Positions 16,322-36,540 of a stretch of DNA of 64,000 bases are shown one piece after another. Numbering within the stretch: position 1 is the first letter of the stretch; each line of letters starts with the position of its first letter. The stretch spans positions 1-64,000 of the forward strand of contig NZ_BMHH01000017.1 in NCBI RefSeq assembly GCF_014640615.1, given 5' to 3'. Under the pieces are notes generated by a model that was not told the origin of the DNA, made no database searches, and worked only from the letters and a program-made list of their open reading frames with translations. The stretch is from Paramesorhizobium endophyticum (GTDB lineage: Bacteria; Pseudomonadota; Alphaproteobacteria; Rhizobiales; Rhizobiaceae). Made by a program: the position numbers and the translations under genes.

Positions 16322-17554
16322 TTAAATTGCGAGCGCTATCTCCGTCTGGTCGTTTATGAAGGCGGCCTCATAGTGCCGCGCCAAAGCCCCGGAGACGCCC
16401 AACTGTCGAAGCGCCTCACGCCATTCATCGGAAATACGCCGCGCTGTCTCGCGGATCATTTGGCGGGCGTCCTCTTCGGCGACCTCGAAAAACTCGCACG
16501 CTTCGAGGGCCAGACGGATCGACCGGTCATGCGCGCCGCCCTCGATGATCGCCGTTTCGAGGTGCGGATTGCGGTCAGGCGCGGGGTTCACATCGAAAAC
16601 CGGAGATAATCGCCAGCGGCCGGCTCCCACATACAGGAACCCGTGGTTCTTCAGATGGTCATCCTTGTTCGATACGAGGATCGTGAAGATCAAACGCAGG
16701 AAGAGTTCGCGGAAATCAGCCTGCGGATCAGCGGCATTTGCCCGCATAAAGTCAACGATCTCCGTATAGGAACCGAGCTCGGTTCCAGTCTTTCCAAGGG
16801 CCGTGCGAGCCGAGATGTAAGGAATACGTGCGGTCCCGCGCCGGTCGAACCGCTGGATCAGAGCGACGGGGAATGGCGTGTCGGAGAGTTCCAGCCTGGC
16901 CTCCGGCGTGCGGATGCCGCATACCTTGGCCAAGTGTAGCGTGGCGACCTCGACACGTTCGATCGGTTGCTGGTCGTGGACCGATGTGAACTTGGCGAGC
17001 CAGAGCGTCTCGCCGTCCCGGACATTGGCCTTGGGACGTGCACCGCCGGAACCGCCCGCGCCGGCGAGCGTCTGCATCTCCTCTGCGGAAATCTCCCTGC
17101 CTTGTTCATAGGCCCGGGCGATGGCAGTGATCGCCTGCAGATCGACAAGGCGTGGCACAGCATCGGTCGCCCCACCCCGGATGATTTCTCCGCTATCGTT
17201 CAGAAACCGCAGAGCCCCCTGCCGGCAGGTATCATCGGACAGGGTCAGATATTCGAATTCGGAAAGGCCGTTGCCATAGGCGCGCTCGAGAAGCCTGCGG
17301 CCCCAGCTATCCGGCGCGGCGTCGGCGAAGACGCCCGCCAGTGCGTCGCGCACGTTTCCGGACTGGCCGGATGCATGAAATGGCCCAGCGTCAAGAGGGA
17401 AGGTCGGCTGCACGGCAAAGGCGCGGGGATTCTCGATCCAGGCGGGGTCATAGGTGAAGGTCGAGAACTGGCGTGGCCCAGCCTGCGTGAAACGCAGTTG
17501 ACCAACAGGTGTCAGGCTCTCGCCGAGAACGACATGGGCGTTGAAGTCGGGCAT
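16322..17554 (-). CDS. hipA: HipA-family serine/threonine kinase toxin
   Basis: 410 residues, close to the usual 420-440. Seen in order: an N-terminal HipA domain (PVGQLRFTQAGPRQFSTFTYD), a glycine-rich ATP loop (GAGGSGGARPKA, about residue 165), the catalytic loop SNKDDHLKNHGFLY (about 292-305) and the metal-binding SPVFDVNP. In characterised members HipA phosphorylates glutamyl-tRNA synthetase and slows growth, and is neutralised by HipB. Its ATG overlaps the hipB stop by one base, so the pair is co-translated. Frame and catalytic residues are intact, so it is likely functional. Confidence 0.9.
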   Translation of the reverse strand: MPDFNAHVVLGESLTPVGQLRFTQAGPRQFSTFTYDPAWIENPRAFAVQPTFPLDAGPFHASGQSGNVRDALAGVFADAAPDSWGRRLLERAYGNGLSEFEYLTLSDDTCRQGALRFLNDSGEIIRGGATDAVPRLVDLQAITAIARAYEQGREISAEEMQTLAGAGGSGGARPKANVRDGETLWLAKFTSVHDQQPIERVEVATLHLAKVCGIRTPEARLELSDTPFPVALIQRFDRRGTARIPYISARTALGKTGTELGSYTEIVDFMRANAADPQADFRELFLRLIFTILVSNKDDHLKNHGFLYVGAGRWRLSPVFDVNPAPDRNPHLETAIIEGGAHDRSIRLALEACEFFEVAEEDARQMIRETARRISDEWREALRQLGVSGALARHYEAAFINDQTEIALAI

Positions 17555-18198: not shown

Positions 18199-18213
18199 TG
18201 ACAAGAGCAGTCA
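18199..18213. promoter_or_regulatory. Iron-responsive (IRO/RirA-type) box of the receptor gene
   Basis: TGA-CAAGAGCAG-TCA fits the TGA-N9-TCA consensus of RirA-regulated promoters in rhizobia and relatives. It lies 48 bases upstream of the receptor start codon. The same motif precedes the biosynthetic operon at 30474-30488, which makes chance less likely. Confidence 0.6.
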
Positions 18214-18260
18214 TTGTGGCTTTTATGCGGCGCGCGCACGATGCAGAAGAGGGGATTTCC

Positions 18261-20402
18261 ATGGAATTGCGTTTCGGGCTGGGGACCGCGCTGGCCCTTA
18301 TCATGACTCAGGCTGCCGTCGGGCAGGATGCGATCGAACTGAAAACCATCGAGGTGAAGACGGGTTCCGCAACCTCGACCATCGGCACCCCGCCGGAAGC
18401 CTATGCAGGAGGTCAGGTGGCGCGGGGCGGCCGTCTCGGCTTGCTCGGCAACCGGGATTTCATGGACACGCCATTCAACATCACGAGCTACACGGCCCAG
18501 ACGATCGAGGACCGGGACGCGCAGACAGTGGCTGATGTGCTCGCCAATGATCCGTCCATCCGGAGCACCCATGCCTCTGGCGGAATGCTCGACTCCTTCT
18601 ACATCAGAGGCTTTCCGCTGAACGAGGGCAATTTCGGGGAGGTCGCTTTCGATGGCGTCTATGGTGTCGCGCCAACCTACCGCCTCTTTGCCGATTATGC
18701 GGAACGCGTCGAGGTACTGAAAGGGCCGACGGCACTGCTTTATGGCATTTCACCGAACAGCGGCGTCGGCGGCACTGTCAATATCGTGCCGAAGCGCGCC
18801 GCGGATGTGGACCTGACGCGGGTCACCACCAGCTACATGTCGGAGCTTTACGGCGGCACGCATCTGGACCTCAGCCGCCGCTTCGGCGAGAGCCGTCAGT
18901 TCGGCGTGCGGTTCAACGGCAGTTTCCACGGCGGCGACACGCCGATAGACGACCAGACGCGGAAGGTCGCGGTTGGCGCGCTGGGACTCGACTATGAGGG
19001 CGAAGGCCTGAGGGCGACGCTCGATCTCATCGGCCAGCGGGAAGATTGGGACGCGCCGCAGCGCCCGTTCTTTCCCGCCGCCGGCATCCGGATTCCCGAC
19101 GCGCCGGATGGCAGACTCAACATTCAGGAGCCCTGGGAATGGTCGAGGAGCGAGGATATTTCCTGGCTAGGCCGGGCCGAATATGACGTCAACGACAATA
19201 TCACGGTATTTGGCGCTGTCGGCGGCGGAAGCTCGCGCGTCACGCGGCTTTTCGGCACTCCGACCCTTCTCAATTCTGCAGGCGATGTGAGCGTCACGCC
19301 GCAGAATTACATCTTCGACGTGGACAGGACGACGGCGGAAACGGGCGTTCGCGCCAATTTCGAGACGGCAGGCATAGATCATACGGTCACGCTGCAGGCG
19401 AGCGGCCTGCGCCAGAGCCTCGACCGGGGCGTCAACTCCGGAAAGGCCCAACTCACCAATATCTACCATCCTTTCCCACGCCCCGAGCAGGATGTGCCGG
19501 AGCCGGATAGCGCGCCCAAAGTCTCGGAAAATACCTTCTACGGCCTTGCTCTCTCCGACACACTCTCCATGGCGGATGACCGGGTGCTGGTCACGCTCGG
19601 CGGACGGTGGCAGCGCATCGACACGGAGAATTACAATCCGGCTTCCGGCGCTGTCACCACCTCGTCCGACGAAAGCGCGTTTGCGCCCCTCATGGGCGTG
19701 GTGATCAAGCCCTGGGAAAATGTTTCGTTCTACGCAAATTATGTGGAGGGCCTCAGCGTCGGCGATAGCGCACCGGCGAATGCGCTCAATGCCGGAGAGA
19801 CGCTCTCACCCTACCGATCGCGGCAGTACGAAGTTGGCGCCAAGGTTGATTTCGGCCAGATGGCCGTGACCCTTAGCGTGTTCCAGATCGAAAAGCCGTT
19901 CGGGCAGCTTGAAGCACGCGGAAGCGATCTCGTGTTCCTGGAAGGCGGCGAGCAGCGCAATCGTGGCGTCGAACTCAGCATGTTCGGCGAGGTGGCGCCT
20001 GGGGTCCGGATGCTCGGTGGCGTCACATGGCTGCAGGGCGAGCTGACCGAAACGGCGAATGCGGCGGCGCGCGGCAACCGACCCATCGGTGTACCAGCCT
20101 GGCAGGTCAATGCGAGCGCGGAGTGGGACACGCCGTTTGTTTCCGGGCTCACCCTCGCGGGCAATGTCATTCATACCGCGAAGCAATATGCCGATACGGC
20201 GAATGCCATGGAAATCCCCTCCTGGACCCGGCTCGACCTCGGAGCGCGGTACCGTACCGAAATCGACAAGCGTCCCGTCACCTTCCGGGCGCAGATCGAG
20301 AATGTGCTGGATCTGGACTATTGGTCCGGCGTGGCCAGCTTCGGCACTCTCTCGCAAGGCGCACCGCTCACCGTGAAGCTGTCGATGACGGCCGATTTTT
20401 AA
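18261..20402 (+). CDS. TonB-dependent siderophore receptor
   Basis: 713 residues from 18261, chosen for the ribosome site (gaggggat) and the signal peptide MELRFGLGTALALIMTQAAVGQ. The plug domain (about residues 60-170) has TPFNITSYTAQTIEDRDAQTVADVL, here abbreviated as TPFNITSYTAQTIEDRD, then FYIRGFP and VEVLKGPTALLYG, typical of ferrisiderophore receptors (FhuA/FoxA type). The rest is a 22-strand barrel ending in a terminal Phe. It faces the siderophore operon across a short terminator and has its own iron box, so it is most likely the outer-membrane receptor for the siderophore made by that operon. Confidence 0.92.
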   Translation: MELRFGLGTALALIMTQAAVGQDAIELKTIEVKTGSATSTIGTPPEAYAGGQVARGGRLGLLGNRDFMDTPFNITSYTAQTIEDRDAQTVADVLANDPSIRSTHASGGMLDSFYIRGFPLNEGNFGEVAFDGVYGVAPTYRLFADYAERVEVLKGPTALLYGISPNSGVGGTVNIVPKRAADVDLTRVTTSYMSELYGGTHLDLSRRFGESRQFGVRFNGSFHGGDTPIDDQTRKVAVGALGLDYEGEGLRATLDLIGQREDWDAPQRPFFPAAGIRIPDAPDGRLNIQEPWEWSRSEDISWLGRAEYDVNDNITVFGAVGGGSSRVTRLFGTPTLLNSAGDVSVTPQNYIFDVDRTTAETGVRANFETAGIDHTVTLQASGLRQSLDRGVNSGKAQLTNIYHPFPRPEQDVPEPDSAPKVSENTFYGLALSDTLSMADDRVLVTLGGRWQRIDTENYNPASGAVTTSSDESAFAPLMGVVIKPWENVSFYANYVEGLSVGDSAPANALNAGETLSPYRSRQYEVGAKVDFGQMAVTLSVFQIEKPFGQLEARGSDLVFLEGGEQRNRGVELSMFGEVAPGVRMLGGVTWLQGELTETANAAARGNRPIGVPAWQVNASAEWDTPFVSGLTLAGNVIHTAKQYADTANAMEIPSWTRLDLGARYRTEIDKRPVTFRAQIENVLDLDYWSGVASFGTLSQGAPLTVKLSMTADF

Positions 20403-20406
20403 AGGC

Positions 20407-20424
20407 GGAGGGGCAAGCCCCTCC
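20407..20424. terminator. Bidirectional hairpin between convergent siderophore genes
   Basis: ggaggggc-aa-gcccctcc, a perfect 8-bp stem with a 2-base loop, sits in the 29 bases between the receptor stop and the ATPase stop. It can serve both strands, though no long T-run follows it. Confidence 0.6.
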
Positions 20425-20431
20425 CCTTCGA

Positions 20432-21184
20432 TCAGAGTGCATCGTCAACGATAAGATGAAGCTTGCCCTGCGAACAGGGCTCGACGCGAGCCTTGATGCG
20501 AAAGGCCGCGGCAAGGTTATCCGGCGTCAGCACCTCTGCAGCGGCGCCGAAATCCTTCAGTGTCCCATCCGCAAGCAGAGCCACCTTGTCGGCAAATTTC
20601 AGCGCCAGATTGAGATCGTGCAATGTAATGAGCACGAGCATGCCGCTGTCCTGCGCGAGGCTGCGCACGCGGCGCATTGCCTCCAGTTGCCGATGCATGT
20701 CGAGCGCGCTCGTCGGCTCGTCAAGAAGCAGTACCTGCGGCTCGCGCACAAGGCACTGGGCAAGGCCCACGAGCTGGCGCTGACCGCCGCTCAGTTCCGA
20801 AAGAACCTCGTTGGCCAGATTGCCGATATCGAGTGCAGCGAGCGCACGGTCCACCGCCACGAGGTCTTCTGATTGCAAGCGCCAGCCGCTGACCTGCTTG
20901 CGCGCCAGCAGAATGGATTCGAAGACGGTCAGTACCGCGCTCCCCGTCTGGTCCTGCGGCATATAGGCGATGGCCCGTTCCACCTCCGGTACTCCTTCGA
21001 GGCGGCAGTCACCCGGCCCCGGCAACAGACCGGTGATGCGGCGGAACAATGTCGATTTGCCCGCCGCGTTGGGACCGACAATAGCGATGACCTCACCGCC
21101 ACGGCAGGGCGGCAGCGTAACATCACGGAGCACCTCGCGCGATCCGAACCGGGCGCCAAGGCGGTTCGTGCTCAGCACTACCAT
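20432..21184 (-). CDS. Siderophore ABC importer, ATPase (FecE/FhuC type)
   Basis: 250 residues from the ATG at 21184; the longer upstream frame lies inside the permease gene. Walker A is GPNAAGKST (about residues 36-44; the family usually has GPNGAGKST or GPNGSGKST), the signature is LSGGQRQLVGLAQCL, Walker B is QVLLLDEPTSALD, and the switch His is in LITLHDLNLAL. It would energise the inner-membrane permease for import of the ferric complex. It is the last gene of the nine-gene operon, overlapping the permease by seven bases. Confidence 0.9.
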   Translation of the reverse strand: MVVLSTNRLGARFGSREVLRDVTLPPCRGGEVIAIVGPNAAGKSTLFRRITGLLPGPGDCRLEGVPEVERAIAYMPQDQTGSAVLTVFESILLARKQVSGWRLQSEDLVAVDRALAALDIGNLANEVLSELSGGQRQLVGLAQCLVREPQVLLLDEPTSALDMHRQLEAMRRVRSLAQDSGMLVLITLHDLNLALKFADKVALLADGTLKDFGAAAEVLTPDNLAAAFRIKARVEPCSQGKLHLIVDDAL

Positions 21185-22245
21185 ATTTCTCTCCCGCTCT
21201 TCAGGATCAGATAAAGGAAAACCGGCAACCCGATTGCCGCGGTGACGATGCCGATCGGCAGGACGGCGCCGGGAATGGCGACCTTCGCCAGAACGGAACT
21301 CAGCGATACGATCAGCGCGCCGGTTAGCGCACTTGCGGGCAACAGGAAGCGCTGATCCTCCCCAACCATCATGCGGGCGATATGCGGTCCTACCAGGCCG
21401 ACGAACCCGACAGTGCCGACGAAGGCGACGGGAATAGCCGACAGGAGAGAAACGAGAATGAGCGTCTCCAGCCTTAACCGGCGGACCGGAACGCCAAAGC
21501 TCGCCGCGCGTGCCTCGCCAAGACGCAGCGCCGTGAGCTGCCACCGGCGGCGCAGGAAGATCGGCATCGTGACTGCCACCACCAGCGCCGTAAGGGCGAG
21601 TTTCGGCCAGGTCGTCTTGGTCAAGCTTCCCATAGTCCAGAAGACGATCGCCGCCACCGCCTGCTGATCGGCGAAATACTGGATGATGGCGAGCGCGGTA
21701 TTGAAGCTGAACACCAGCGCGATACCGAGGAGCACGATGGTCTGGATCGAAGCGCCGCGCTTGAGGCTTGCCAGATGAATGATCAAGGCCGTCGCCATCG
21801 CGACAACAAAAGCGTTGACGGCGACGATGTAGTCACCCGCCAAGGGAAAGAGCGCCACACCGAAAGCCAGCGCCAGCGCGGCTCCGAAACTCGCGCCGGC
21901 TGATATTCCCAGCGTGAACGGGCTCGCCAGCGGATTGTTCAATATGGTTTGCATCTGCGCGCCGCCGATCGCCAGCGCCATTCCGACGACGATTGCCATC
22001 AGCGCCGAAGGCATCCGGATCGACCAGACGATGACGCGCATCTGCGCATTTACCTCGGACGGCATGAAAAGGGTGCGGACCACGTCCGCGATGGGATAAT
22101 TGGCCGGCCCGGTGGCGATGTCGCCGATAAAGGCCGCGCAGAGCCCGGCGGTCAATGCGAGGAGAACGATCTGGCGCCTTGCGGTCAAGGCGATATAAGC
22201 GCCGCGCGCGGAACCGGCCGCGGCTTCATGGTAGGTATTTGTCAT
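21178..22245 (-). CDS. Siderophore ABC importer, permease (FecCD family)
   Basis: 355 residues from the ATG at 22245, which overlaps the upstream stop (ATGA). FecCD-type features: about ten membrane segments, GGAQMQTILNNPLASPFTLGIS, GSLTKTTWPKL and, near the end, VGLVGPHIARMMVG, the loop that contacts the ATPase. It is a single permease, so the transporter is probably a homodimer as in BtuC. It moves the ferric siderophore from the periplasmic binding protein into the cytoplasm. Confidence 0.92.
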   Translation of the reverse strand: MTNTYHEAAAGSARGAYIALTARRQIVLLALTAGLCAAFIGDIATGPANYPIADVVRTLFMPSEVNAQMRVIVWSIRMPSALMAIVVGMALAIGGAQMQTILNNPLASPFTLGISAGASFGAALALAFGVALFPLAGDYIVAVNAFVVAMATALIIHLASLKRGASIQTIVLLGIALVFSFNTALAIIQYFADQQAVAAIVFWTMGSLTKTTWPKLALTALVVAVTMPIFLRRRWQLTALRLGEARAASFGVPVRRLRLETLILVSLLSAIPVAFVGTVGFVGLVGPHIARMMVGEDQRFLLPASALTGALIVSLSSVLAKVAIPGAVLPIGIVTAAIGLPVFLYLILKSGREIW

Positions 22246-23393
22246 GATGGCCTGTCGGATAGGCTGACTGCATAGCCCGGCTGGAAGGGTATCGGCAGGA
22301 AGCGGCGATGATATTCGGCGAATGTCGCGTCCGGATCCAGATCGGCGAACAGGTCGGGATGAAGCCATTTCGCCAGTTGCTGGACGGCAACGAACCCATA
22401 GGGACTGTTGTAGAACTGATGCCAGATCGCGTGGAATCTCCGCGTCTTCTGGGCCGCGATGCCGGTATAGGCGCTGCGCGTGGTATACCATTCGAGCTTC
22501 TTGCGTGCCACGTCCAGATCAGCCCCAGGACCAAGCGGAATCCAGTGGCCGCCTGGCGCGTAGGCTTCCCAGTTGGCGCTGGTCACAACCACGTGCTCAG
22601 GATTTGAGGCGATCACCTGCTCGGGGTTGAGCTGTCCGAACGTGGTGGGAATAATGTCGCTTCCGATATTGTGCCCCCCGGCGAGTTCGACATATTTTCC
22701 GAAATTCTCCGGGCCGAAAGAAAGGCAACAATCGTCAGTGTACCCGCCGATCCGTTCGATGAACACACGCGGGCGCTGCGGTTTCGCACGGGCGAGCACG
22801 TCGGTGACTTGGGCCATGGCCTGCCGGCGGAATGCAATAATCTGTTCCGCGCGTGCCTCCCGTCCCATGATCTGTCCCAAAAGGCGGATGGTCGGCTCGG
22901 TGTTTTGCAGGGGATGATGCCGGAAGTCGATATAAAGGACGGGAATGCCAAGCGCCGCGAGCTTCTCTATATATTTGGCATCTTCATTGGCGCGCATCGC
23001 CTCGAGATTGAGAAGCACGACGTCCGGCTGGTGCACGATGGTCGATTCGATGTCGATCAGTCCATTCTCCTCCCCTCGGAAGGCGGGCAGTTCCGCGAGC
23101 TTCGGAAAGGCCTGGAGATATTGCGCATAAGTCGCCGGGTCGGCTTCGATCAAGTCATTGCGCCAGGCGACGACGCGGGCCAATGGGTTTTCCCTGTCCA
23201 ACGACCCTATCAGATAGAGCTGCCGCCCCTCCCCCAGCATCATACGCCTCACAGGCGCGTTCACCTGCACCTTGCGCCCTGCGATATCCGTGACGGTGAT
23301 TGGCGCCTGCTGGTCAGCGGCATGCGCCATTATCGGGACAAGCGTCGCGAGGATTACGACCACGGCACGCAACACCGAAGATTTCCCCCTCAC
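22242..23393 (-). CDS. Siderophore ABC importer, periplasmic binding protein
   Basis: 383 residues with an N-terminal signal ([21 protein letters not shown], 20-odd residues) and the FecB/FepB fold: [19 protein letters not shown] at the mature start, then [17 protein letters not shown] and the long helix linking the two lobes. It is longer than the usual 300-350, with an extended C-terminal third ([21 protein letters not shown]). Likely binds the ferric form of the siderophore made by this operon. Its start overlaps the MFS stop by four bases. Confidence 0.88.
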
Positions 23394-24619
23394 AATATTA
23401 CCTCCTTACCGACAGGCTGGCGCGCCCTCAGCCAAAGGCCGAGCGCTACCAGGAACGAGACCCCATAGAAGCCTGCAACGAGCGGGAATGCCACCCAGAG
23501 GCCAAAGTACTGGGTTGCTATCACACCGGCAACGATCCCGGCAACAGAAGCGCCTTGCTGGCAGGTCTGCGCCAGACCCAGCATGGAGCCTTGCCGCTCG
23601 TTCCGCGTTGCGGCCGAGATGAGCGAGAGGAGCACAGGCGTCGTTCCTCCCAGAAGCAGGCCCCAGGTAAAATAAAGCGTCATGAACAGGCCAATGCTTC
23701 TCGTAAAGCCGGCAAGCGCAGTGGCAACGAGACATGCAGCCGAGATCAGGACGCTCCATCCCAGCACGTAAGGCAAGGCGCGTCCCCTGAAGAGCCTGGC
23801 CCATACGGGCGCGCCGACAACGAAGCCGAAGGCCAGCAATCCATAACTCAACCCGGCAATCGAGTGATCTGCCCTGAACACATCTGTCATATAAAGCGAG
23901 AAAGGAACCTGCAGCACCATCCGGCTTGCCAGCAGCATTCCCATGAGCGCGAGAAGCCCTGAAACAGATGTGTCCACTTTTGCTGCGTCCGGCGATACAG
24001 TTTCCGGCGACGGCTGTATCGCCTTTGCTCCGGCGGGAGGCGTCGGCAAGACGGCCCAGGCGACAGCGGCGCAAAGCGCGCAGACCGCGCCGGCGGTGAG
24101 GTTGACCGCAGCGAAGGGCATGGCATCGAGGATGAGCCCGCCGAGGAATGCGCCCCCCAGCGAGCCGACATTGGTGGCCACCTGCAACCAGGCGAAAAGG
24201 CTGGCCCGATCCCGTCCACCGGTGACCTGCACGCCGTAAGCCTGTGCCGGGGCGATATAGCCGGCGCAGGCTCCCTGCAGGAAACGCAGCGCCTGAATCG
24301 TCCAGACATCCTGTGCAAAGGCGACCAGCAATTGTGTCACCGCCAGCCCCGCCAGCGCCCGAACCATCATAAGCCGGTTGCCGTAGCGGTCCCCCATGCG
24401 CCCCCAGAACGCACTGGTTACCGAGATGCCGAGCAAGGGGCAGACATAGACACCTATCCCTGCCAGGCTGAAGGCACTTTCCGACGAGCTAAGCGCCTTG
24501 ATCTGGATGGGCCAGAACGGACCGCTCATTTCCATGGCGCCCATCGAAACGAACTGCAGACCGAAAAGCAGGGCAAAGACGGGGCCAAAGCCGCGCAGGG
24601 TAGCGGCTGTCCCGGTCAT
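23390..24619 (-). CDS. MFS transporter, probable siderophore exporter (SbnD role)
   Basis: 409 residues with twelve predicted membrane segments. The MFS motif A appears as [15 protein letters not shown] in the loop after segment 2. In NIS siderophore loci such as sbn an MFS protein (SbnD) exports the product. Here it sits between the synthetase and import genes with four-base overlaps at both ends, so export of the newly made siderophore is the simplest reading. Substrate is inferred from context only. Confidence 0.85.
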
Positions 24620-26502
24620 TGCGCGCTTGCCAGAGGGTTGGGCAAATGGTGTTCGACCCGGTAGTCGCGATAGCGCTCCAGATGCATGCGCAGTACGGAG
24701 CGCGTGGGCCAGGGGCGCTCGAGAAAGGCTTCCCGCTCTCCCGTCCAGAATGCATCGGATCGCATGCGCGGTCGCAGTGCGTCGAAGGCTCGTTCGGTTT
24801 CTTCACGCAACACGCGCCACAAAATATTGTCCATCAATGCATATTGCTCGCTGAGGCAAAGGGCGATCTCGTGCAGATGACAGACGAAGCAGGCATCAAT
24901 CACGAAAGATCGTACCAAACTGATATCGCCGTCGAATGTCGTTGGCAAAATCCCTTTGCGGCTGAACGGCTTCAGATCATATCCGCGCTCCCTGAAAAGC
25001 GGAGCGAAACTGCGGCCGTCGCCGAAATCGCGGATGAGCAGTTTCCGCGGACGGCCTTTATCATCAAAAAGAATGGTGCTGTTCTGCTGATGCGCCTCGA
25101 ACGCAATTCCATAGAGCAGATACATGGCCAGCGCTGGCTGGACCACGGTACGCGCATAGGCACGGAAGAAGGTGGTGACGTCCGCCTCGGCTTCGCTGCC
25201 CTTTCTGGCGATGAGTTCGCAAATGAGCGGGCGGCCATCGAACGGGCTTGCCGTCAGAAGTGCCGCCACCGTTACAGGCAGAAGACCATCCTGGCGCGCA
25301 AGAGGGTCGGCGTTACGGTAGACGACTGAAAGGAACCGTCCTGGATGCTCATCGCCGGTCTCCGGATGGTGAAGAATTGCACCCAACTCCTCGATGAATA
25401 TTTCCAGCCCATCCTTGAGATCATCCTCTCCTAACAGAATGCTGGAAATCAGCGTGCTGAGACGCGGACCCATATGGATCGATTTCGCCTGCAAGGTCCG
25501 TTGCTCGCTCGTCAGCCAGATCGCGACCGGCAGTTTGATAAAGGGTCTGGCGTCCTGCGTTTCCTGTAGCATCGTTCGGAAGGACATGGATGGCAGCGTC
25601 TCGATTTCAGGCCCAGCCGGGTCAAAAATATCCGCTTCGATCTCGGGCGCGAATTCCCGGCGCACGAAGTTCTCCAGATGCCATGCATGTACGGGCAATG
25701 GAAGCCAGCTCTCGGGTGATTTGCCGCGCCGTGTGAGATCCTCAGCCCAGCTTTGCCACAAATCGGGAAATTTCTGCGAGAACCATTCCGAATAATCGCC
25801 GACATGCGGCATCTTCTCGACGTAAGCCCAATCTCGACGCAAGGCGGCGATGCGCAGACGCACCCGCGCCCCGAATTCCGGCGAGAGGGTAACGACGTCT
25901 TCCTGCGCCAGGCCCGGCTTTGCCTTCCATGTGGGGTAGAAGGGATGGCCCTCGAGCGCGCCCCACTGATCGAGCGTCATGGCGGCCAGATGCGGCGGCA
26001 AGCTTTGTTCGAGATAGCCGAGGAAACCGGGTGCGCCGGCTTCGGCGATTTTTCGGCGAAGGTCAGCGCTCCAGCTGTGCCTGTGGCGGCGCGCGAGGAT
26101 GTCGTTCTCAACGCTGTTTTCCACGTCGCTCATCAAATGCTGCAGGCCATCAGGCGCTGGCGAAATGGCAAGGCAGGGTGCGATCTCCTGCATGAAGTGC
26201 GCAGGATCGTCGATTCTCTGCCGCGCGCCGTCACTATCCTGCACTTCGATCTGGCCGCGGTTACGCAAGGTTCCGGCGGGTGCCGGGCAAAGGTCGCTGA
26301 AATGCAGGACGCGGCGCGTCGGCCAGAGCGGCAACCAGGCCTGACGCCTATCATGGGCCCATAGCAGCGCGTCGGGGTTCAGAAGCCGCTCTGCGAAAAG
26401 GCAGCGGATGAGCCGGTTGATAGCGTTGCGCCGCGCATCAGCCAGAAACCTCGCATCGTCCTCTTGGCCATGATCTATCGGGGAAATCACCCTCTCGTCC
26501 AT
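24616..26502 (-). CDS. NIS siderophore synthetase (IucA/IucC family)
   Basis: 628 residues from the ATG at 26502, which shares a base with the preceding TAA and has a GGAGG ribosome site. Family features: [14 protein letters not shown] (about 184-197), the nucleotide/carboxylate-binding motif, SMSFRTML, then [18 protein letters not shown] and [11 protein letters not shown] in the C-terminal FhuF-like half. These enzymes use ATP to join a carboxylic acid such as citrate, malate or 2-oxoglutarate to an amine. It is the only such enzyme in the locus, whereas staphyloferrin B needs three, so the product should contain only one or two such amide bonds. Confidence 0.92.
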
Positions 26503-27641
26503 TATGCCGCCTCCGGCCAGTTTGAAGGAATATAGTCCGGCGCGCCATTGGCAAGACCACCATGATAGCTGCACGCCCATCGATAAGTGCTGGCAATCGC
26601 CGGAACCGGCACGTCCAGACGCTGCGCCATCGTGACCAGCAGCGCCTGCCCGAAGGCGATATCCTCATGGAAGGCACGGCTGTCGCGATCGATCACGAGC
26701 CCTGGCCCTTGTGGATTGGGAATGAGTGGCGCGCGAATATCAGCGTAGGCGCGGTTGGTGCGCAAAAGCGTATACATGGTTCGAGCATCGCCGATCTGGT
26801 CGCCATAGGCTTCGACAAGCTCCTGCCGGAGCGGCTTGACAGAACTCAGGTCAACGCCGAGCCGCGCCTCGCTCGCCCGCCGGATTGCCTGGCTTTCCGC
26901 ATCGCAGGCTTCCAGCAGTTCAGCCCCCGCCAGTGGACAGTCGCTCCACCAGCAAAGTGGCTGGTCGAAGGGTTTTTTCTCGAAAGGGGCGCCGGGCCCG
27001 GCCAGCGCATAAAGCACGGCGGGGTGCATCAGCGCATTGCCCGGGGTCAGTGTGATTTCCAGATAATCCTGCAGCAGCGTGACGGAGGCGTCGTAAAGCC
27101 GGTTCAGCATTCCCAAGAGCGCAGCGCCGTTTGCCGCGTTCTCCCTGCGATGCAGCGCCACGAAAAGCTCGGCCTTCGCGCCGCCCATCCGCACACGTTC
27201 ACCGGCAACAAGGTCGAAAGCGATGTGCGGCACGTCCTTCATGCCCCAGATCACCACATTGTCGCGACCCCGCAAAACCTTCGCTGCCAGCCAGTCAAAG
27301 CCGCAAAAGCCCGGAATCGCCCCGACATAAACGCTCCTGTCCTGCGGTAAATGCGGCGCTATGCGGGAAAGCAGTGCAGCCCGCGCATGGGCCGGCTGCG
27401 TGACGAGGACCAGATCGGAATTCTCAAGCGCTTTCCTGGGGTCGGTTCCCACATGATCGGGCCGGGCACTCAAGATTCCACCGTCGCGGATTATCGCTTG
27501 CCAATGGCCGTCGCCATCGGCCCAGCGTCCGGCAACGGCATCGTCACCGGTCAGGACGGAAACTGCGACGTCCGGTTTCTGTTTGAAGAGAACCGCATTC
27601 AGATGGCCGGTGCGGCCGGCACCACAGATCGTCACCTTCAT
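26502..27641 (-). CDS. Opine dehydrogenase (NAD/NADP octopine/nopaline family)
   Basis: 379 residues from the ATG at 27641, which overlaps the upstream stop. The N-terminal Rossmann fold has GAGRTGHLNA at residues about 6-15. The C-terminal octopine dehydrogenase domain has LTPGNALMHPAVLYALAG, with the catalytic His in the NxxxHP motif. Family enzymes reductively couple an amine with a keto acid (pyruvate or 2-oxoglutarate). In sbn loci this position is held by SbnB, a different family (ornithine cyclodeaminase type). Here it could join pyruvate to an aminoethyl amine, giving an N-carboxyethyl group, or instead split an opine intermediate as SbnB does. Confidence 0.88.
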   Translation of the reverse strand: MKVTICGAGRTGHLNAVLFKQKPDVAVSVLTGDDAVAGRWADGDGHWQAIIRDGGILSARPDHVGTDPRKALENSDLVLVTQPAHARAALLSRIAPHLPQDRSVYVGAIPGFCGFDWLAAKVLRGRDNVVIWGMKDVPHIAFDLVAGERVRMGGAKAELFVALHRRENAANGAALLGMLNRLYDASVTLLQDYLEITLTPGNALMHPAVLYALAGPGAPFEKKPFDQPLCWWSDCPLAGAELLEACDAESQAIRRASEARLGVDLSSVKPLRQELVEAYGDQIGDARTMYTLLRTNRAYADIRAPLIPNPQGPGLVIDRDSRAFHEDIAFGQALLVTMAQRLDVPVPAIASTYRWACSYHGGLANGAPDYIPSNWPEAA

Positions 27642-28645
27642 GCGGCTTGCGCCTTTTCGATCAGCCAATCATCCAGTTGGGCGGCGATTGCCGGGTCGAG
27701 CAACTTGCGTTTTTCCATCCACTCGTCGTCGAATATGGTGCTAAGATATTTCTCGCCCCCATCCGCGACTGTGGTCACGACCGTGCCGTGGAGCTTGCCC
27801 GAGGCAATGAATTCCAGCGCCTTGTAGATCGCACCGCCGGTCGAGCCGCCGACAAGCAGGCCCTTGCGCCGGGCAATGTAACGCGCCGTCTCGAAGGCCT
27901 GCGTGTCCGTCACCTGGACGCCTTCATCGATACAACCATAGTCGAGCACCTTGCCGACCTCGTCACCCGCCGGCGTGCCGGTTCCCGATTGGTAGTATGG
28001 ATGGCCTGGCTTGCCGAAAACGATCGATCCGGCGGGTTCCACCGCGATCGTCCGAATCGCCGGATTGTGGCGCTTGAGGCGCTGGGAAATACCAGTCATC
28101 GACCCGCCGGTGCCCACACAGCCCACGAATGCATCGATTCCGGCAGGGATCTGCGTGAGCAATTCCTCGACGTAACCGGCATAACCTTCGGGATTGGCCG
28201 GATTGTCGGACTGGTTCATGAAGAGCGCTCCGGGAAGCTGCGCGCCGAGTTGCGCCGCCAGGCGTTGCCGTTCCACCACTGCCACTTCGTCTTCCCGGAA
28301 ATCGCCTTCCACATAGCGAATTTCGGCGCCAAGCGCACGCATCATGCGGACCTTGTCCGGCGCCGCGTGATGATCCACCACGGCGATGAAACGCAAGCCG
28401 AATTCCAGCGCCGCCAACGCCAGTCCGGTGCCGGTATTGCCGGAGGAGGATTCGACAATCGTCCCGCCGGGACCGAGCCGTCCGTCGCGAAGCGCCGCAA
28501 TGACCATGCTGCGCGCCATGCGATCCTTCATCGAACCGCCGGGATTGTTCTTCTCTATCTTCAGCACCAGCGTGCTGTTCCGGTTCGAAACGGGGATCGA
28601 CATAACGGGCGTCTGGCCGATCAATTGCGTAATCGTCGTATGCAT
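27638..28645 (-). CDS. SbnA-like PLP enzyme (cysteine synthase fold)
   Basis: 335 residues. PLP lysine K40 is in NNPGGSMKDRMA, the substrate loop is SSSGNTG and the phosphate-binding loop is GCVGTGGSMTG. It resembles SbnA more than CysK by context: SbnA condenses O-phosphoserine with an amino acid (glutamate) by beta-replacement. With a SerK/SbnI-like gene in the same operon the donor is likely O-phosphoserine. The acceptor cannot be read from sequence; lysine would fit a rhizobactin-type product. No cysteine pathway genes are near, arguing against housekeeping cysteine synthesis. Confidence 0.85.
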   Translation of the reverse strand: MHTTITQLIGQTPVMSIPVSNRNSTLVLKIEKNNPGGSMKDRMARSMVIAALRDGRLGPGGTIVESSSGNTGTGLALAALEFGLRFIAVVDHHAAPDKVRMMRALGAEIRYVEGDFREDEVAVVERQRLAAQLGAQLPGALFMNQSDNPANPEGYAGYVEELLTQIPAGIDAFVGCVGTGGSMTGISQRLKRHNPAIRTIAVEPAGSIVFGKPGHPYYQSGTGTPAGDEVGKVLDYGCIDEGVQVTDTQAFETARYIARRKGLLVGGSTGGAIYKALEFIASGKLHGTVVTTVADGGEKYLSTIFDDEWMEKRKLLDPAIAAQLDDWLIEKAQAA

Positions 28646-28648
28646 CGT

Positions 28649-30022
28649 CTATACCTCTTCAATCGTGTCGGGAGCGAGCATTGGCCGTCCTTCCGCATCT
28701 CGCAGAACGCACAGGCGGGCGGGCATCGGGTGGCGGTGGAATTCGTTTTCAAGTAGGTCCATCTGGTATCCGGCCGTATTGGCAAAGACCAGAAGGGCGC
28801 CGGCTTGCGGCGCAACCGGGAAGCTCAGCCATCGGTTGCTCAATGCGTCGTCATCCAGACAACTGTGACCGGCGAGATAAGCGCGGATTGGATTTGATTC
28901 AGAGCGCGGCGGCTCTGCAGGTATGAGAATGGGGTCGACCAGAAATTCAGAGCCGAACCAGGTTTCGCAGGCACTGAAGCTGCTGCCCTCCACGAAAACG
29001 ACGTGGGCGTCATCACCCACAGCCTTTACGCGCGTGATCCGGAAGACCGTAAGGGCTGCCTGATCCGCAAGCGCGCGGCCCGGCTCCATGGCAAAGATGA
29101 GGTTTTCCTGCCTGAAATAGTCGGCAACAGTCTGACTGGCTTGGATTTCCGCCCGCAACAGTTGGTGCAGCCACTCCGCCGCCGAGAGCGCACCGCCATA
29201 GGGATAGAAGGAGTCAGGAACTTTTCCCGTGCGGTAGTCTTCTGCCCTTTGGATTGCCAGATGCGCCTGATAGTGCTCATGCTCGACATATTGGATGGGC
29301 AGACCGCCGCCGATATCGATCATGCGGGGTGAAAAACCCATTCCGCGGGCTTCCGCAATCAGGATGGCAGCTTCTTTCAACGCTGCGGCGCGCTCTTCCC
29401 AGCGATAGCCGCCAAGATGAAAATGCAGCCCGTCGAAACGCAACCTGCTTTCCCCGACCATACGGTCAAGACAGCGCATGACGATCTCCGCAGGCATGCC
29501 AAAGCGGCTCTTGCGCTGGCTCACAGGTTGTAGGCGCAGGAGAACCGGCTGGGTGCCCATCTTCGACGGCAAGCAACTGAGGAGGTCCTCAAGTTCCTCG
29601 GGAGAATCCACGGATATGAGCGCGTTACAGTCGATCAACTCCCGATGAAAGACCCGGGTCTTCGCCGGTCCTGTTGCTACAAGTCCGGCACCGTCGGCTC
29701 CCAAGCGCCTCGCATCACGAAGCTCATACAGGCTGGAAACATCTATTCCGGCCCCTGCGCCGAGCGCTGCCTGAATGAGCCCCGGTGATTTGTTGACCTT
29801 GGCCCCGTAATAGATGGCATGCTCGACGCGATGCCCGATCAGCGCTTCTTTCAACGCAGCAAGATTTTCCTGCAGGGCCCCTGGCCAGACCAGATTGAGC
29901 GGAGAACCATAGCGGGCAACCCAGTCATGGAGCAATGAGGCATCCCGGCCCAAAAGCTCTGCGGTTTGCTGATGTAAAATTGGCGGCAGGCCGCCATCAG
30001 GCTTGTGACAATGAATAGTCAT
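28649..30022 (-). CDS. SbnH-like PLP decarboxylase (fold type III)
   Basis: 457 residues, related to diaminopimelate/ornithine decarboxylases. PLP lysine K75 lies in [25 protein letters not shown] is the His-Gly-Gly motif; [12 protein letters not shown] binds the cofactor phosphate; a C-terminal active-site Cys lies in SSFSACETW. In sbn loci SbnH removes the carboxyl of a diaminopropionate unit to leave an ethylenediamine unit. The same step here would convert the SbnA-like product to an aminoethyl amino acid. Three bases separate it from the SbnA-like start and it overlaps the SerK-like stop. Confidence 0.88.
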
Positions 30023-30435
30023 GGGCGCACTTCCGCAGCCGGCAGCAGATCATACCCGAGCAAAAATACCAAAGGCACATCGCAGCGCGGCAAAGCCTGA
30101 TCGAAGACATGACGCGTTGTCTTGCAAGGGAACTTTCGGCCGCTGCGCGCCATGGCGAAGATATGTGCGGGCGTGATCGTTTCGCCCGGACGCCAGCTTT
30201 CCACGCGCACCATGCTGTAATCGAGAAGGAAAACCGGCACTCCGGCCAGGCCAAGGCGATGGGCGGCTGCCAACCGGTGATGGCCATCCATCACAAACAA
30301 CGCCTCTTTTTCCACCGCGATCGGGACGGTCCAAGCGCCGGCCCGCAGGATCTCTGCTTGAACCTCACGGACCCGTTGCGGATCGACTTCCTCCGTGGGA
30401 GCCAACTGGCTTGGGGAGACAATGCAATAATTCAT
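30019..30435 (-). CDS. SerK/SbnI-like ParB-fold protein, probable serine kinase
   Basis: 138 residues from the ATG at 30435, chosen for the strong gagggg ribosome site; the longer frame has none. It has the ParB/sulfiredoxin fold motif [15 protein letters not shown] (about residues 48-62), preceded by a helix with [14 protein letters not shown]. No DNA-binding or partition domain is present. SbnI of staphyloferrin B loci is a ParB-like protein that phosphorylates serine to supply O-phosphoserine, and archaeal SerK shares the fold. As first gene of this operon it likely has that job. It should not be annotated as a partition protein. Confidence 0.75.
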
Positions 30436-30473
30436 ATACCCCCCCTCATATTCACCAACTGCGCCATAATACA

Positions 30474-30488
30474 TGAGTAGTTTTATCA
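30474..30488. promoter_or_regulatory. Iron-responsive (IRO/RirA-type) box of the siderophore operon
   Basis: TGA-GTAGTTTTA-TCA matches TGA-N9-TCA exactly, within the wider dyad catga...tcatg. It lies 39 bases upstream of the first gene. RirA represses such promoters when iron is plentiful, so the whole nine-gene operon should be switched on by iron shortage. Confidence 0.65.
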
Positions 30489-30489
30489 T

Positions 30490-30789
30490 GTTTATGACGG
30501 CTGCCAGCAGTCCAACTTAGAGGGAGGGCAAAACGGTGCACTGGAGGAAAGAGCGGCGGTGCCTGCCGGGAACTTAAATCGGCACTTCCAGTTGCCATGC
30601 GGCGTCGGCCAGACCAAACCGGTCCGTGTGATCCCCCCTTCGCCGGTGGCTATCACCTACGAGAGTCAGCAGAAGCGCATTGAAGGCACCGTCCGTCCAT
30701 GAGGGCCGCGTCAACAGCCCGCGTGTCCAGATGCCGAAGCCTGCCCTCGGGCTTGACCCTGGGGACGGCGAAACGCCGGCTGATCACAG
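30490..30789. other. Gap upstream of the siderophore operon
   Basis: No intact gene. The right part probably belongs to the decayed IS66 copy that follows; the left part holds the siderophore operon promoter. Confidence 0.35.
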
Positions 30790-31035
30790 GTGCCGCTTTC
30801 GCCAGCAGCGCAGCATTCCTGTCCTTTGCGCCCTCAAGGCCTGGCTCGACGCGATTGCGCCAAAGGTCATGCCCGACACAAGCTTGGCGAGGCCGTCTCC
30901 TACACGCTCAATCAGTGGAAATATCTGACACGCTACACAGAGGACGGCAGCATGCCGATCGACAACAATTTGCTGGAGCGTGACATCAGGATTTTTGCAA
31001 AAAGCGCCGGAACCGGCAGGCATGGTTCCGAGAAA
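30790..31035 (+). pseudogene. IS66 transposase (TnpC) C-terminal remnant
   Basis: Pieces in two plus-strand frames match the C-terminus of IS66 transposases: [16 protein letters not shown], then [19 protein letters not shown] and [19 protein letters not shown]. The asparagine-rich PIDNNLLER motif contains the last catalytic Glu. Everything else of the element is gone, and the fragment is frameshifted. It belongs to a different IS66 branch from the 12.6-kb element ([10 protein letters not shown] there). Confidence 0.7.
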
Positions 31036-31102
31036 CCTCCAGCCAGAGGCAACGTGCGCGGAAATTCGCGCTTACATTGAAATGACATACTCCAAAACCA
31101 AG

Positions 31103-31121: not shown

Positions 31122-32042
31122 CTATTTCATTGCCACCTCTCCAGAGAGCAGCAGTTCCTGCTCATGCTCATCGAAACGCAGAAGATTGCCGTGCTGGCTT
31201 CTGCGCACCTTTCGCAAGTGGTCCCTCGGGCTCAGACCCAATGTTCGCTTGAACATTCGGGAGAAGTAATAGGGATCGGCGTAACCGACCTCGGCCGCAG
31301 TCGCTGCGACGGAACGTCCTGCTTCAAGAAAATGCATGGCGCGCTCCATGCGCTTGAACTCCTGATATTTGCGCGGCGTTCTGCCCACCCGCTTCTGAAA
31401 TTCGCGCAGGAAATAGTCTCGGTTATAGGGTGCGGCATCCGTGGCCTTACCCGCGATCTCCGGATCGAGCGGGTTGGCCGATATCATGGTGATGGCCTTC
31501 ATCACGGCGAGATCGAGCCCTTCCGTTCCTTCCAACGGGAAGCTTGGTCTGTCGTTCCAGCCAATAAATGCATCATCGATGAAAGCGATCAGAAGCACCA
31601 TGAACAGATGATGCTGACCGAGTGTCACTGACGAGGGCGGGGCGCTTTGACGGTAGTGCCGAACGAGTGGTTCGAGGAGCGGCCAGCGGCTCAAACGGGT
31701 CTTCGGCTTCAACTCCATCTGCGCGATAAGGTTGTGTCGGCCGTAAATATCCAACGTGAAATGCTGGGCGACGCCTCTATACATTGAGATTTGCTCGTTC
31801 CAGCCGACGAAGCGTTGCCCACGGGAAATCAACATGGCGTCGCCAGGATCGAGAATCCTTTTTTCGCCGTCAATGAGATAATGGCCCTGTCCTTCCAGGC
31901 AAATGATGAGGTCATCGACCTGATTGGATTTGTCGATCTGCCAGGTGCGCGAGTGCTCCATTCGGATCGCCGCGCGCGTCAGGTTCAGTTGCAGGGCAGC
32001 AGGTGGAATGGAAGAAAGAATTCCACCTTCGATTTCGTCCAT
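31122..32042 (-). CDS. AraC-family regulator of the pectin locus
   Basis: 306 residues. The N-terminal cupin-like sensor (about 20-110) has GQGHYLIDGEKRILDPGDAMLISRG in outline (GHYLIDGEKRILDPGDAML). The C-terminal AraC domain (about 200-290) has two helix-turn-helices, the second with EVGYADPYYFSRMFKRTLGLSPRD. It is transcribed away from the transporter operon that starts 214 bases to the right, a layout typical of a local activator. The inducer is probably a pectin breakdown product; that is inferred from the neighbouring genes. Confidence 0.85.
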   Translation of the reverse strand: MDEIEGGILSSIPPAALQLNLTRAAIRMEHSRTWQIDKSNQVDDLIICLEGQGHYLIDGEKRILDPGDAMLISRGQRFVGWNEQISMYRGVAQHFTLDIYGRHNLIAQMELKPKTRLSRWPLLEPLVRHYRQSAPPSSVTLGQHHLFMVLLIAFIDDAFIGWNDRPSFPLEGTEGLDLAVMKAITMISANPLDPEIAGKATDAAPYNRDYFLREFQKRVGRTPRKYQEFKRMERAMHFLEAGRSVAATAAEVGYADPYYFSRMFKRTLGLSPRDHLRKVRRSQHGNLLRFDEHEQELLLSGEVAMK

Positions 32043-32255
32043 CTTTTTCCTCGTCTTTGTTAATTCAAAATGGCTTGGATTTTTGGTTTTGTCACGTCAT
32101 AAACCTGCTACATGACGCTTAACGCCGAGGGAGGAGATCGGTTTTGGCGATGGATGTGACGATAATCGCACGCGCCAATGATCGACCTGGGAGAACCACT
32201 TGTACGAAATCGTATTCTGTTATTCGCGTTCCTACGGGGCGCGGGGAGGAATGTC
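32043..32255. promoter_or_regulatory. Divergent promoter region, AraC gene / transporter operon
   Basis: 213 bases between two divergent starts. A run ttttggttttgtcacgtcat followed by a second acatgacg may form a weak dyad for the regulator. No confident -35/-10 pair was assigned. Confidence 0.35.
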
Positions 32256-33137
32256 GTGACATCTCAACGCTTCTTGGGCTTGGGATATCTGGCGCCCTAC
32301 ATTATTGGCCTGCTGATCTTCACGGCGGTACCTTTCCTTGGCTCCCTCTATCTCAGTTTTACCCGTTATGACTTGATGAGCGACCCTACCTGGGCAGGCC
32401 TGGCTAATTACGAGCGTCTGTTCACCCGCGACCGCACCTTCATGAAGTCATTGAATGTGACGCTGTTCTACGTGTTCCTGACCGTTCCGCTGAAGCTCGC
32501 CTTCGCGCTTTTCATCGCCGCCATTCTCAATTACAAGCTGCAATTCATCAATTTCTTCCGCACCGCATTCTATGTCCCTTCGATTCTCGGCGGATCAATC
32601 GCGATTGCGGTTCTGTGGCGCTATATCTTTGCTTCGGAAGGGCTTGCAAACATGGCGCTTGCGGCCATTGGCCTTTCTCCGGTCGATTGGTTCGGCGATC
32701 CCGGAAACGCGCTTTTCACCATCACGCTTCTGCGTTGCTGGCAGTTCGGCTCGGCTATGGTGATCTTCCTTGCGGCGCTGCAGGCGATCGACAAGTCGCT
32801 TTACGAGGCGGCAGCTATCGATGGTGCCGGTAAGGTCAGAACGTTCTTCTTCATCACCCTGCCGCTTCTGACACCGGTTATCTTCTTCAACCTCATCATG
32901 CAGATGGTTCAGGCATTCCAGGAGTTCAACGGCCCCTACATCATCACGCAGGGTGGACCGCTGAAATCGACGTACCTGCTGCCCCTCTACATTTACGATG
33001 AGGCGTTCAAGAAGTTCAACATGGGCTATGCCTCTGCCATCGCCTGGGTTCTCTTCACCATCATCACGGTACTGACCCTCGTGGCCTTCTGGTCTTCGAA
33101 GAAGTGGGTCTATTACGCCGGCGACAAGCGGAACTAA
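32256..33137 (+). CDS. togM: CUT1 sugar ABC transporter, permease 1 (TogM-like)
   Basis: 293 residues from the GTG at 32256, which has a strong ggggagga site five bases upstream; a longer frame from 32178 lacks one. Six membrane segments, with the permease EAA loop YEAAAIDGAGKVRTFFFITLPLLTP (in outline EAAAIDGAGKVRTFFFITLP). The N-terminus RFLGLGYLAPYIIGLLIF is typical of oligogalacturonide-type permeases. With the following genes it forms an importer for oligosaccharides; the hydrolases downstream point to oligogalacturonides. The gene name rests on context rather than on a unique residue. Confidence 0.82.
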   Translation: MTSQRFLGLGYLAPYIIGLLIFTAVPFLGSLYLSFTRYDLMSDPTWAGLANYERLFTRDRTFMKSLNVTLFYVFLTVPLKLAFALFIAAILNYKLQFINFFRTAFYVPSILGGSIAIAVLWRYIFASEGLANMALAAIGLSPVDWFGDPGNALFTITLLRCWQFGSAMVIFLAALQAIDKSLYEAAAIDGAGKVRTFFFITLPLLTPVIFFNLIMQMVQAFQEFNGPYIITQGGPLKSTYLLPLYIYDEAFKKFNMGYASAIAWVLFTIITVLTLVAFWSSKKWVYYAGDKRN

Positions 33138-33141
33138 TACC

Positions 33142-34026: not shown

Positions 34027-34028
34027 AA

Positions 34029-35129: not shown

Positions 35130-35169
35130 TCGCGCGACACGAACCAAATATACAAGGAGGAGGAAAACA

Positions 35170-36438: not shown

Positions 36439-36540
36439 TGCAGATGGCCGTGATCAAGATCGCGGCTAGACGACTTTGCCGATCAGGCGTGCCTTCGCCG
36501 ATTTTCCTCAGCGAGGGCTAGAGATAAAACGAGACCGAAC

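Follow-up and report, generated by a model that had tools for sequence, protein, structure and literature searches.

A nine-gene operon of Paramesorhizobium endophyticum that probably directs the synthesis, export and re-import of rhizobactin

Rhizobactin has been known since the 1980s, and its genes are named nowhere in the literature that we searched, subscription papers lying largely outside that search. The malate-containing compound was first found in Ensifer meliloti DM4, and both rhizobactin (C15H27N3O8) and rhizobactin B (C16H29N3O8), in which citramalate replaces malate, were reported from Pseudomonas sp. FEN (PMC7676072; here and below, statements taken from cited papers refer to the excerpts available to us). 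In this study, we describe a siderophore operon and its receptor gene in the window, that is, the whole stretch of 64,000 nt analyzed (NZ_BMHH01000017.1, positions 1-64,000; source genome of 4.93 Mb in 83 contigs). We conclude, with a probability of roughly 0.82, that this putatively iron-regulated operon serves to produce, secrete, and take back rhizobactin, most likely in the malate form. The conclusion is supported by the identities of the genes, the catalytic residues they have kept, their co-occurrence, the presence of the gene set in a reported producer, and the conserved place of an iron box.

Two described gene sets are closest to this operon. The proteobactin cluster pbtABCDEFGHI (PMI0229-0239) of Proteus mirabilis, as presented in a 2024 review, contains the nonribosomal peptide synthetase-independent siderophore (NIS) synthetase PbtA, a receptor, a decarboxylase, a pyridoxal phosphate (PLP) enzyme, an octopine dehydrogenase, a major facilitator superfamily (MFS) protein, a binding protein, a hypothetical protein, and PbtI; it is iron-repressed, falls in the same clade as Y4xN, and has a predicted hydroxycarboxylate product (PMC11026637). 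The excerpts of that review give no structure for proteobactin. They report that only a double mutant of nrp and pbt loses iron chelation, which indicates that the pbt cluster works. The second set consists of the six genes y4yB-y4yA-y4xP-y4xO-y4xN-y4xM, which lie between nopX and nopL in Sinorhizobium fredii NGR234 and were called a "curious group of genes" with an "enigmatic" role in a 2014 review (PMC3973906). The gene family has therefore been described before, both as the iron-regulated siderophore system of proteobactin, a compound lacking a structure, and as the y4yB-y4xM genes; within the literature searched, what appears to be new is the product assignment that joins these orphan gene sets.

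In the window, nine minus-strand genes at 20432-30435, identified by profile matches to Pfam and NCBIfam, each overlap or abut the next, and a plus-strand TonB siderophore receptor gene is convergent with them. All the genes and families that the first-pass annotation had named in 18199-30488 were recovered in this overlapping or abutting arrangement, its "facing" receptor being the convergent one. The features are as follows.

18199..18213, plus strand: iron-box motif TGA-N9-TCA upstream of the receptor gene, from a motif search
18262..20402, plus strand: TonB-dependent siderophore receptor; open reading frame (ORF) listed from 18135, the start at MELRFG agreeing with orthologues
20432..21190, minus strand: FecE-type ATP-binding importer subunit; ORF listed from 21544, start chosen by eye
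21178..22251, minus strand: FecCD-type permease; ORF listed from 22491, start chosen by eye
22242..23393, minus strand: periplasmic siderophore-binding protein, from its family match
23390..24619, minus strand: MFS exporter, FslB-like, y4xM homologue, from its family match and orthologues
24616..26502, minus strand: IucA/IucC NIS synthetase of the y4xN/PbtA family, which would add malate to the lysine side-chain amine
26502..27641, minus strand: opine dehydrogenase, y4xO homologue, which would reductively couple pyruvate
27638..28645, minus strand: SbnA-like PLP enzyme, y4xP homologue, a predicted C-N ligase of O-phosphoserine and lysine
28649..30022, minus strand: SbnH/LysA-like PLP decarboxylase of the Y4yA family, with an Orn_Arg_deC match
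30019..30435, minus strand: compact SerK/SbnI-like putative free-serine kinase, y4yB homologue
30474..30488, minus strand: iron-box motif TGA-N9-TCA, 39-53 bp upstream of the first biosynthetic gene

Some of the listed ORF starts are too far upstream; the starts that fit the orthologues, chosen by eye, are 30435 (SerK-like gene), 27641 (dehydrogenase), about 26502 (synthetase), and 18262 (receptor).

The operon combines a NIS synthetase, an SbnA-like enzyme, a decarboxylase, an octopine dehydrogenase, and an MFS exporter in the manner of the Pbt/Y4xN-type operons, and the comparison with known NIS clusters, proposed earlier as a check, matched it to the pbt and y4yB-y4xM family. The four core enzymes are 46-66% identical to those of pbt, which has PbtI (citrate lyase beta), whereas the window locus is without this gene. 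The P. mirabilis copy (L106) contains matches to the pbt set, importer subunits, and a SerK-like gene. Because pbt is the same gene set, proteobactin is predicted to be rhizobactin B or a compound near it. Compared with the window, NGR234 keeps the six biosynthesis and export genes in order at 66-92% identity, but the stretch from y4xM to nopL contains no receptor or importer gene, and the 200 bp before the first gene contain no iron box.

The link to a product comes from Pseudomonas sp. FEN, whose locus (L055) was found among 80 loci retrieved by a dehydrogenase scan of one genome per species (93 stretches confirmed, the best 80 loci kept, two of them from one species). This locus holds orthologues, 42-69% identical to the window proteins, of the SbnA-like enzyme (69%), the dehydrogenase (55%), the NIS synthetase (51%), the SbnH-like decarboxylase (48%), the SerK-like protein (42%), the MFS exporter, the binding protein, and the receptor; the FEN permease lies only partly within the fetched locus and is 37.7% identical. 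At an E value of 0.001, IucA_IucC and Octopine_DH are each matched once in the FEN genome, in both cases inside this cluster, and the source genome of the window likewise has a single match to each family, both in the operon. A reported producer thus has the gene set, and the only NIS synthetase and octopine dehydrogenase genes detected in its genome belong to this set, which lends support to the rhizobactin-type product proposed in the first-pass annotation. There are differences between the two clusters: that of FEN has three additions not seen in the window operon, namely a citrate-lyase-like gene, a class V PLP gene, and sigma/anti-sigma-like ORFs recognized by eye. A product assembled from lysine, pyruvate, malate, and a C2 unit derived from serine has a computed [M+H]+ of 378.1871, and the citramalate version one of 392.2027, compared with 378.1866 and 392.2020 reported for rhizobactin and rhizobactin B in FEN (PMC7676072). 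The steps were devised with this structure in view, and the balance is therefore a consistency check and not independent evidence.

The FEN authors proposed homologues of the rhbAB genes of rhizobactin 1021, one of the two being annotated as a diaminopimelate decarboxylase, and left the biosynthesis to further studies (PMC7676072). The gene so annotated may be the cluster's own LysA-like gene. Rhizobactin 1021 (rhbABCDEF) is a citrate dihydroxamate whose synthesis needs two NIS enzymes (RhbC and RhbF); only the name and the NIS chemistry are common to it and the window operon. This type was ruled out for the source genome and for FEN, each having one NIS match. PF13434 gave six partial matches in FEN, the best of 50.9 bits, and the family was also matched in 12 of 14 control genomes, so that these matches carry no information. 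The FEN gene set thus suggests which genes make rhizobactin, where the analysis of that genome had favored genes of the rhizobactin 1021 type. The common name is a source of confusion: the FEN paper ties rhizobactin to rhbAB of a different molecule (PMC7676072), and a 2025 paper names rhizobactin 1021 genes as rhizobactin genes (PMC12815270). The latter was set aside as prior art, its S. fredii siderophore being petrobactin, and so was PMC8822346, which in its excerpts mentions rhizobactin only through a cited rhizobactin 1021 paper and again gives petrobactin for S. fredii.

From the chemistry of the enzyme families, the order of steps and the substrates may be proposed as follows. The SerK-like kinase would form O-phosphoserine, the SbnA-like enzyme would couple it to the alpha-amine of lysine, and the SbnH-like enzyme would decarboxylate the serine-derived part to leave an aminoethyl arm. 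The opine dehydrogenase would then reductively couple pyruvate to this arm, giving an N-carboxyethyl (alanine) group, and the single NIS synthetase would put malate, predicted here over citramalate, on the lysine side-chain amine. The MFS protein would export the product, and the TonB receptor, the binding protein, and the ATP-binding cassette (ABC) importer would return the iron complex. Such a route to an ethylenediamine-type chelator would be short and would combine C-N ligation from O-phosphoserine with opine chemistry and with amide formation by a NIS enzyme. The aminopolycarboxylate clusters for ethylenediaminedisuccinate (EDDS; aes) also form an O-phosphoserine-dependent ethylenediamine unit, without a NIS enzyme.

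The SbnA-like protein scores 239.6 bits against TIGR03945 (cut-off 349.95) and is therefore not an SbnA equivalog. The dehydrogenase has Octopine_DH (PF02317) as its sole Pfam match (93.4 bits, cut-off 30); the synthetase matches IucA_IucC (154.8 bits) and FhuF; the exporter matches MFS_1, with FslB, the rhizoferrin exporter, as the top NCBIfam match (129 bits, cut-off 600); the importer proteins match Peripla_BP_2, FecCD, and ABC_tran; and the receptor reaches 351.2 bits against TIGR01783 (cut-off 223.5). The catalytic residues of octopine dehydrogenase 3c7a, which we take to be H212, R324, and D329, align by eye to H208, R324, and D329 of the window dehydrogenase (numbering of window:26502-27647), and these three are invariant in 81/81 aligned sequences (the 80 loci and the window). 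Residue K40 of the SbnA-like enzyme and residue K75 of the decarboxylase, presumably the PLP lysines, are invariant in 81/81 aligned and in 72/72 retrieved sequences, respectively; for the decarboxylase and the synthetase, conservation was assessed in 72 of 81 sequences, the rest having been dropped at reading-frame retrieval.

The genes for the decarboxylase, the SbnA-like enzyme, the dehydrogenase, and the NIS synthetase stand together in 80/80 loci (the synthetase being partial in L045, at a contig end), so their grouping is not due to chance; the MFS gene is present in 79/80 loci and the SerK-like gene in 76/80. By record title, the holders comprise Rhizobiales, Leisingera, Thalassospira, Burkholderiales, Pseudomonas, Pectobacterium, and others. 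The dehydrogenase itself is rare, with matches in 3/385 genomes drawn from the class (the source genome included) and in 6/81 near relatives, including 5/6 genomes of the genus. It also occurs in 43 records of a plasmid collection, 22 of them from Sinorhizobium. Two P. mirabilis records filed as plasmids (NZ_OL790812.1 and NZ_OL790811.1) are chromosome-sized, at ~4.08 Mb each.

The choice of acid is informed by the extra gene of the FEN cluster, which encodes an HpcH/HpaI (CitE-like, citrate-lyase-like) protein; this gene and the class V PLP gene are listed at L055 6005-6913 and 14290-15498. Among NCBIfam models, the HpcH/HpaI protein comes closest to RipC of itaconate degradation (160.8 bits, cut-off 375), and it fits the citramalate in rhizobactin B as a means of citramalate supply. 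Citrate-lyase-like genes occur in 30/80 loci (21/21 Pseudomonas, eight Pectobacterium/Samsonia, and one Bosea), or in 32/91 when ten plasmid-collection loci and the window are added, with two changes on the tree; this PbtI-type gene is a variable member and does not define the whole family. It was not found in a search of the window locus, nor in the fetched parts of the two S. meliloti loci L095 and L105 (pSINME01 of AK83 and accessoryA of USDA1021). The malate form is predicted here because the gene is missing from these loci and because rhizobactin first came from strain DM4. The malate of the first-pass annotation is thus retained as the predicted acid for this locus, whereas for related clusters with the citrate-lyase-like gene, a candidate marker, the citramalate form is the probable product. 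A class V PLP gene (SufS/EgtE-like) is present in most Pseudomonas clusters and in Serratia (L097).

An analogue of rhizobactin with the same scaffold and another acid, such as citrate, citramalate, or a different hydroxy acid, would agree with the nearest NCBIfam NIS model of the window synthetase, FslA of rhizoferrin, a citrate compound, although its 270.4 bits are far under the cut-off of 1000. It would also agree with the distance of the synthetase from that of FEN, where a citramalate form exists. We consider such an analogue unlikely, though the most plausible of the alternatives, given that no citrate synthase is found among the operon proteins, that the locus has no citrate-lyase-like gene, and that this gene is confined to a minority of the 80 loci and absent from both fetched S. 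meliloti loci.

In the case of staphyloferrin B (sbn), the SbnA-, SbnH-, and SbnI-like enzymes are common to the window operon, but three NIS enzymes, SbnB, and the citrate synthase SbnG stand against one NIS enzyme and an opine dehydrogenase in the window. With one IucA_IucC gene in the whole genome, a staphyloferrin B product is ruled out, and its earlier exclusion was right. No SbnB or SbnG family was found among the operon proteins, the set to which this search was confined. The common genes could also mean that the opine dehydrogenase runs backwards as a substitute for SbnB, oxidatively cleaving an amino-acid adduct of O-phosphoserine, formed by the SbnA-like enzyme, to L-2,3-diaminopropionate (Dap) for a Dap-based, staphyloferrin B-like product. 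This is very improbable: staphyloferrin B takes three NIS genes (PMC9301485), the dehydrogenase is an Octopine_DH protein that keeps the His-Arg-Asp residues, and FEN, with the same set, makes a Dap-free product with an N-carboxyethyl group. The same paper, on a staphyloferrin B-like system of Methylobacterium, was rejected as prior art for the rhizobactin assignment; it has two NIS-type genes, and neither "opine" nor "octopine" occurs in the main text available.

The motif TGA-N9-TCA, which we take to be a RirA-type iron box, occurs once within 200 bp before each of the two window transcripts. We examined 34 alphaproteobacterial loci (L002-L032, the window, L095, and L096) and found the motif within 200 bp of the SerK-like gene in 22/34, in 21 of these at 53-67 bp, and in the 200 bp before the receptor in 21 of the 29 loci with a receptor match. 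Random 200 bp stretches from the same loci contain it in 6.4% of cases, and 300 rounds of dinucleotide shuffling gave on average 2.0/34 for the first-gene stretches (maximum 7) and 1.3/29 for the receptor stretches (maximum 5). The match in L020, at 139 bp, is outside the shared place and was not counted there; L095 has a box before the first gene but none before the receptor. The 13/34 loci without a box at the shared place are seven of Bradyrhizobium, which is not known to have RirA, three type III copies, L022, and two of Leisingera. The motif by itself is common (29 occurrences in the whole window, where shuffles predict 15.9), and weight was therefore given only to its position and conservation. 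From this motif, the regulator of the operon would be of the RirA type.

The iron boxes also bear on the possibility of an opine-like metallophore for zinc, copper, or nickel in the style of staphylopine, instead of an iron siderophore. Opine chemistry is typical of broad metallophores. Staphylopine and pseudopaline (cnt) share the opine dehydrogenase step, carried out by a different dehydrogenase family (CntM-type) next to the nicotianamine-synthase-like CntL and without any NIS enzyme. Rhizobactin B, too, binds Al, Cu, Mo, and Zn (PMC7676072). A staphylopine-type system was rejected for the window, as the operon proteins have no matching families and the dehydrogenase belongs to PF02317. A metallophore for those metals is hardly credible in view of the iron-type boxes before both transcripts, the siderophore-type receptor, the FecB/CD/E-type importer, the NIS synthetase, the lack of a nicotianamine-synthase-like family among the operon proteins (the search was made in these proteins, not genome-wide), and the iron repression of the pbt homologue (PMC11026637).

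The product of the first gene is a SerK-like protein of only ~138 residues, with no Pfam match at 1e-3 and a score of 41.6 bits against NCBIfam SerK (cut-off 380); it also matches the solved SerK structure by sequence. Its structure model is confident, with a predicted local distance difference test (pLDDT) value of 92.8, and has nine matches in the Protein Data Bank (PDB) at E 0.001 or better. The top match is an unnamed Pyrococcus protein, and the remaining eight are all SerK or SbnI. These fold matches have query template-modeling (TM) scores of 0.82-0.84 at 14-16% identity, and target TM scores of 0.46-0.51, which are low because the matched proteins are longer. The glutamate at the SerK E30 position, a residue mutated in several of the matched entries, is nearly invariant among the orthologues, as are a DGHHR-like and a KTTRH motif.

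Several points weigh against the rhizobactin assignment. The SerK-like gene was not found by tblastn or profile in 4/80 loci (L038, L046, L063, and L070), and in their whole genomes none was found in three at E 0.001, the fourth giving a weak partial match. As a correction to the first-pass annotation, this gene is thus not an indispensable part of the set, presumably because serine synthesis also passes through O-phosphoserine. The connection to FEN is one of homology to a single producer, we know of no gene removal in FEN, and the divergence from the window synthetase and dehydrogenase (51% and 55% identity) would leave room for another acid or amine. By mass computation, a product of ornithine and citramalate is isobaric with rhizobactin. 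The absence of the citrate-lyase-like gene rests on fetched loci, and strain DM4 was compared through its reported compound. The FEN compounds were identified by high-resolution mass spectrometry (HR-MS) and tandem mass spectrometry (MS/MS), with nuclear magnetic resonance (NMR) in addition for rhizobactin B; rhizobactin itself was assigned from its formula and MS/MS, and the NMR data tabulated in the paper are limited to the citramalate and alanine moieties of rhizobactin B (PMC7676072). The FEN genome is a draft of 36 contigs (PMC7849696). Finally, Lorio 2006, according to citations in PMC3973906 and PMC4881576, reported the S. fredii homologue of the SbnA-like enzyme, Y4xP, as a cysteine synthase.

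The NGR234 genes belong to a group of copies embedded in the type III secretion locus. The annotated place of L101, L103, and L104, which with L096 are S. fredii-group plasmid loci, is likewise between nopX and nopL, and in these four copies no receptor or importer was found between the exporter gene and nopL. L010 and L011 match the NGR234 upstream stretch at at least 98.8%, as 0/9 other Sinorhizobium/Ensifer loci do. These six copies form one clade inside Sinorhizobium on the tree. With the plasmid loci added, the iron box is present in 9/9 Sinorhizobium/Ensifer copies outside the type III locus and in 0/6 inside (Fisher 2e-4), a contrast that counts as one event and not six because of the single clade.

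These observations allow a tentative reading, which we would not yet favor, in which one gene family explains three orphans: the genes of rhizobactin, proteobactin as rhizobactin B, and the type III y4yB-y4xM genes as a rhizobactin factory moved from iron to flavonoid/TtsI control. The type III copies, cut off from the uptake genes, would secrete a metal chelator alongside the type III proteins during legume infection. Apigenin induces y4yB-y4xM 52.6- to 83.5-fold together with the type III locus in a 2024 RNA-seq study (PMC10970691). Results against such a symbiotic role come from mutants of y4yA, y4yB, and y4xP, in which type III protein secretion was unchanged (PMC3973906) and soybean nodulation by USDA257 was unaffected (PMC4881576), while in USDA191 mutation of y4xP improved the nodulation of one soybean cultivar (PMC3973906). 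These phenotypes could be masked, as second copies exist: NGR234 has one on pNGR234b, and two copies of y4yA and y4yB were reported in USDA257, according to a cited title (PMC3973906). In 4/6 type III copies, the decarboxylase gene y4yA is split over two frames, the break falling at two different sites; this argues against a general requirement for the product in that setting. Assembly error is possible, and the gene is in one frame in L096 and L103. The split genes are as follows.

L010, 7660-8990: split y4yA
L011, 7649-8990: split y4yA
L101, 6660-7990: split y4yA
L104, 6660-7990: split y4yA

In L104, the dehydrogenase and synthetase matches abut in one frame and the start of the synthetase is missing, where an assembly error is again possible. 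The assignment gives testable structures both for proteobactin and for this "enigmatic" group in a well-studied symbiosis locus.

Around the operon, an IS66-family transposase gene (window 14091-15152) lies 3 kb from the receptor gene, and an IS66-like remnant, recognized by eye, is directly upstream of the operon (window ~30780-31060); both are possible traces of mobility. A HipA-like gene (window 16322-17554) adjoins the receptor gene, and an autotransporter of 2017 residues with PATR repeats is encoded at window 2748-8801. On the other side of the operon, window 31122-38112 contains an AraC-type regulator and a glycoside hydrolase family 28 (GH28; pectinase-type) enzyme by Pfam; ORFs resembling sugar ABC transporter genes, recognized by eye, separate the two, and this region possibly serves plant-polymer use.

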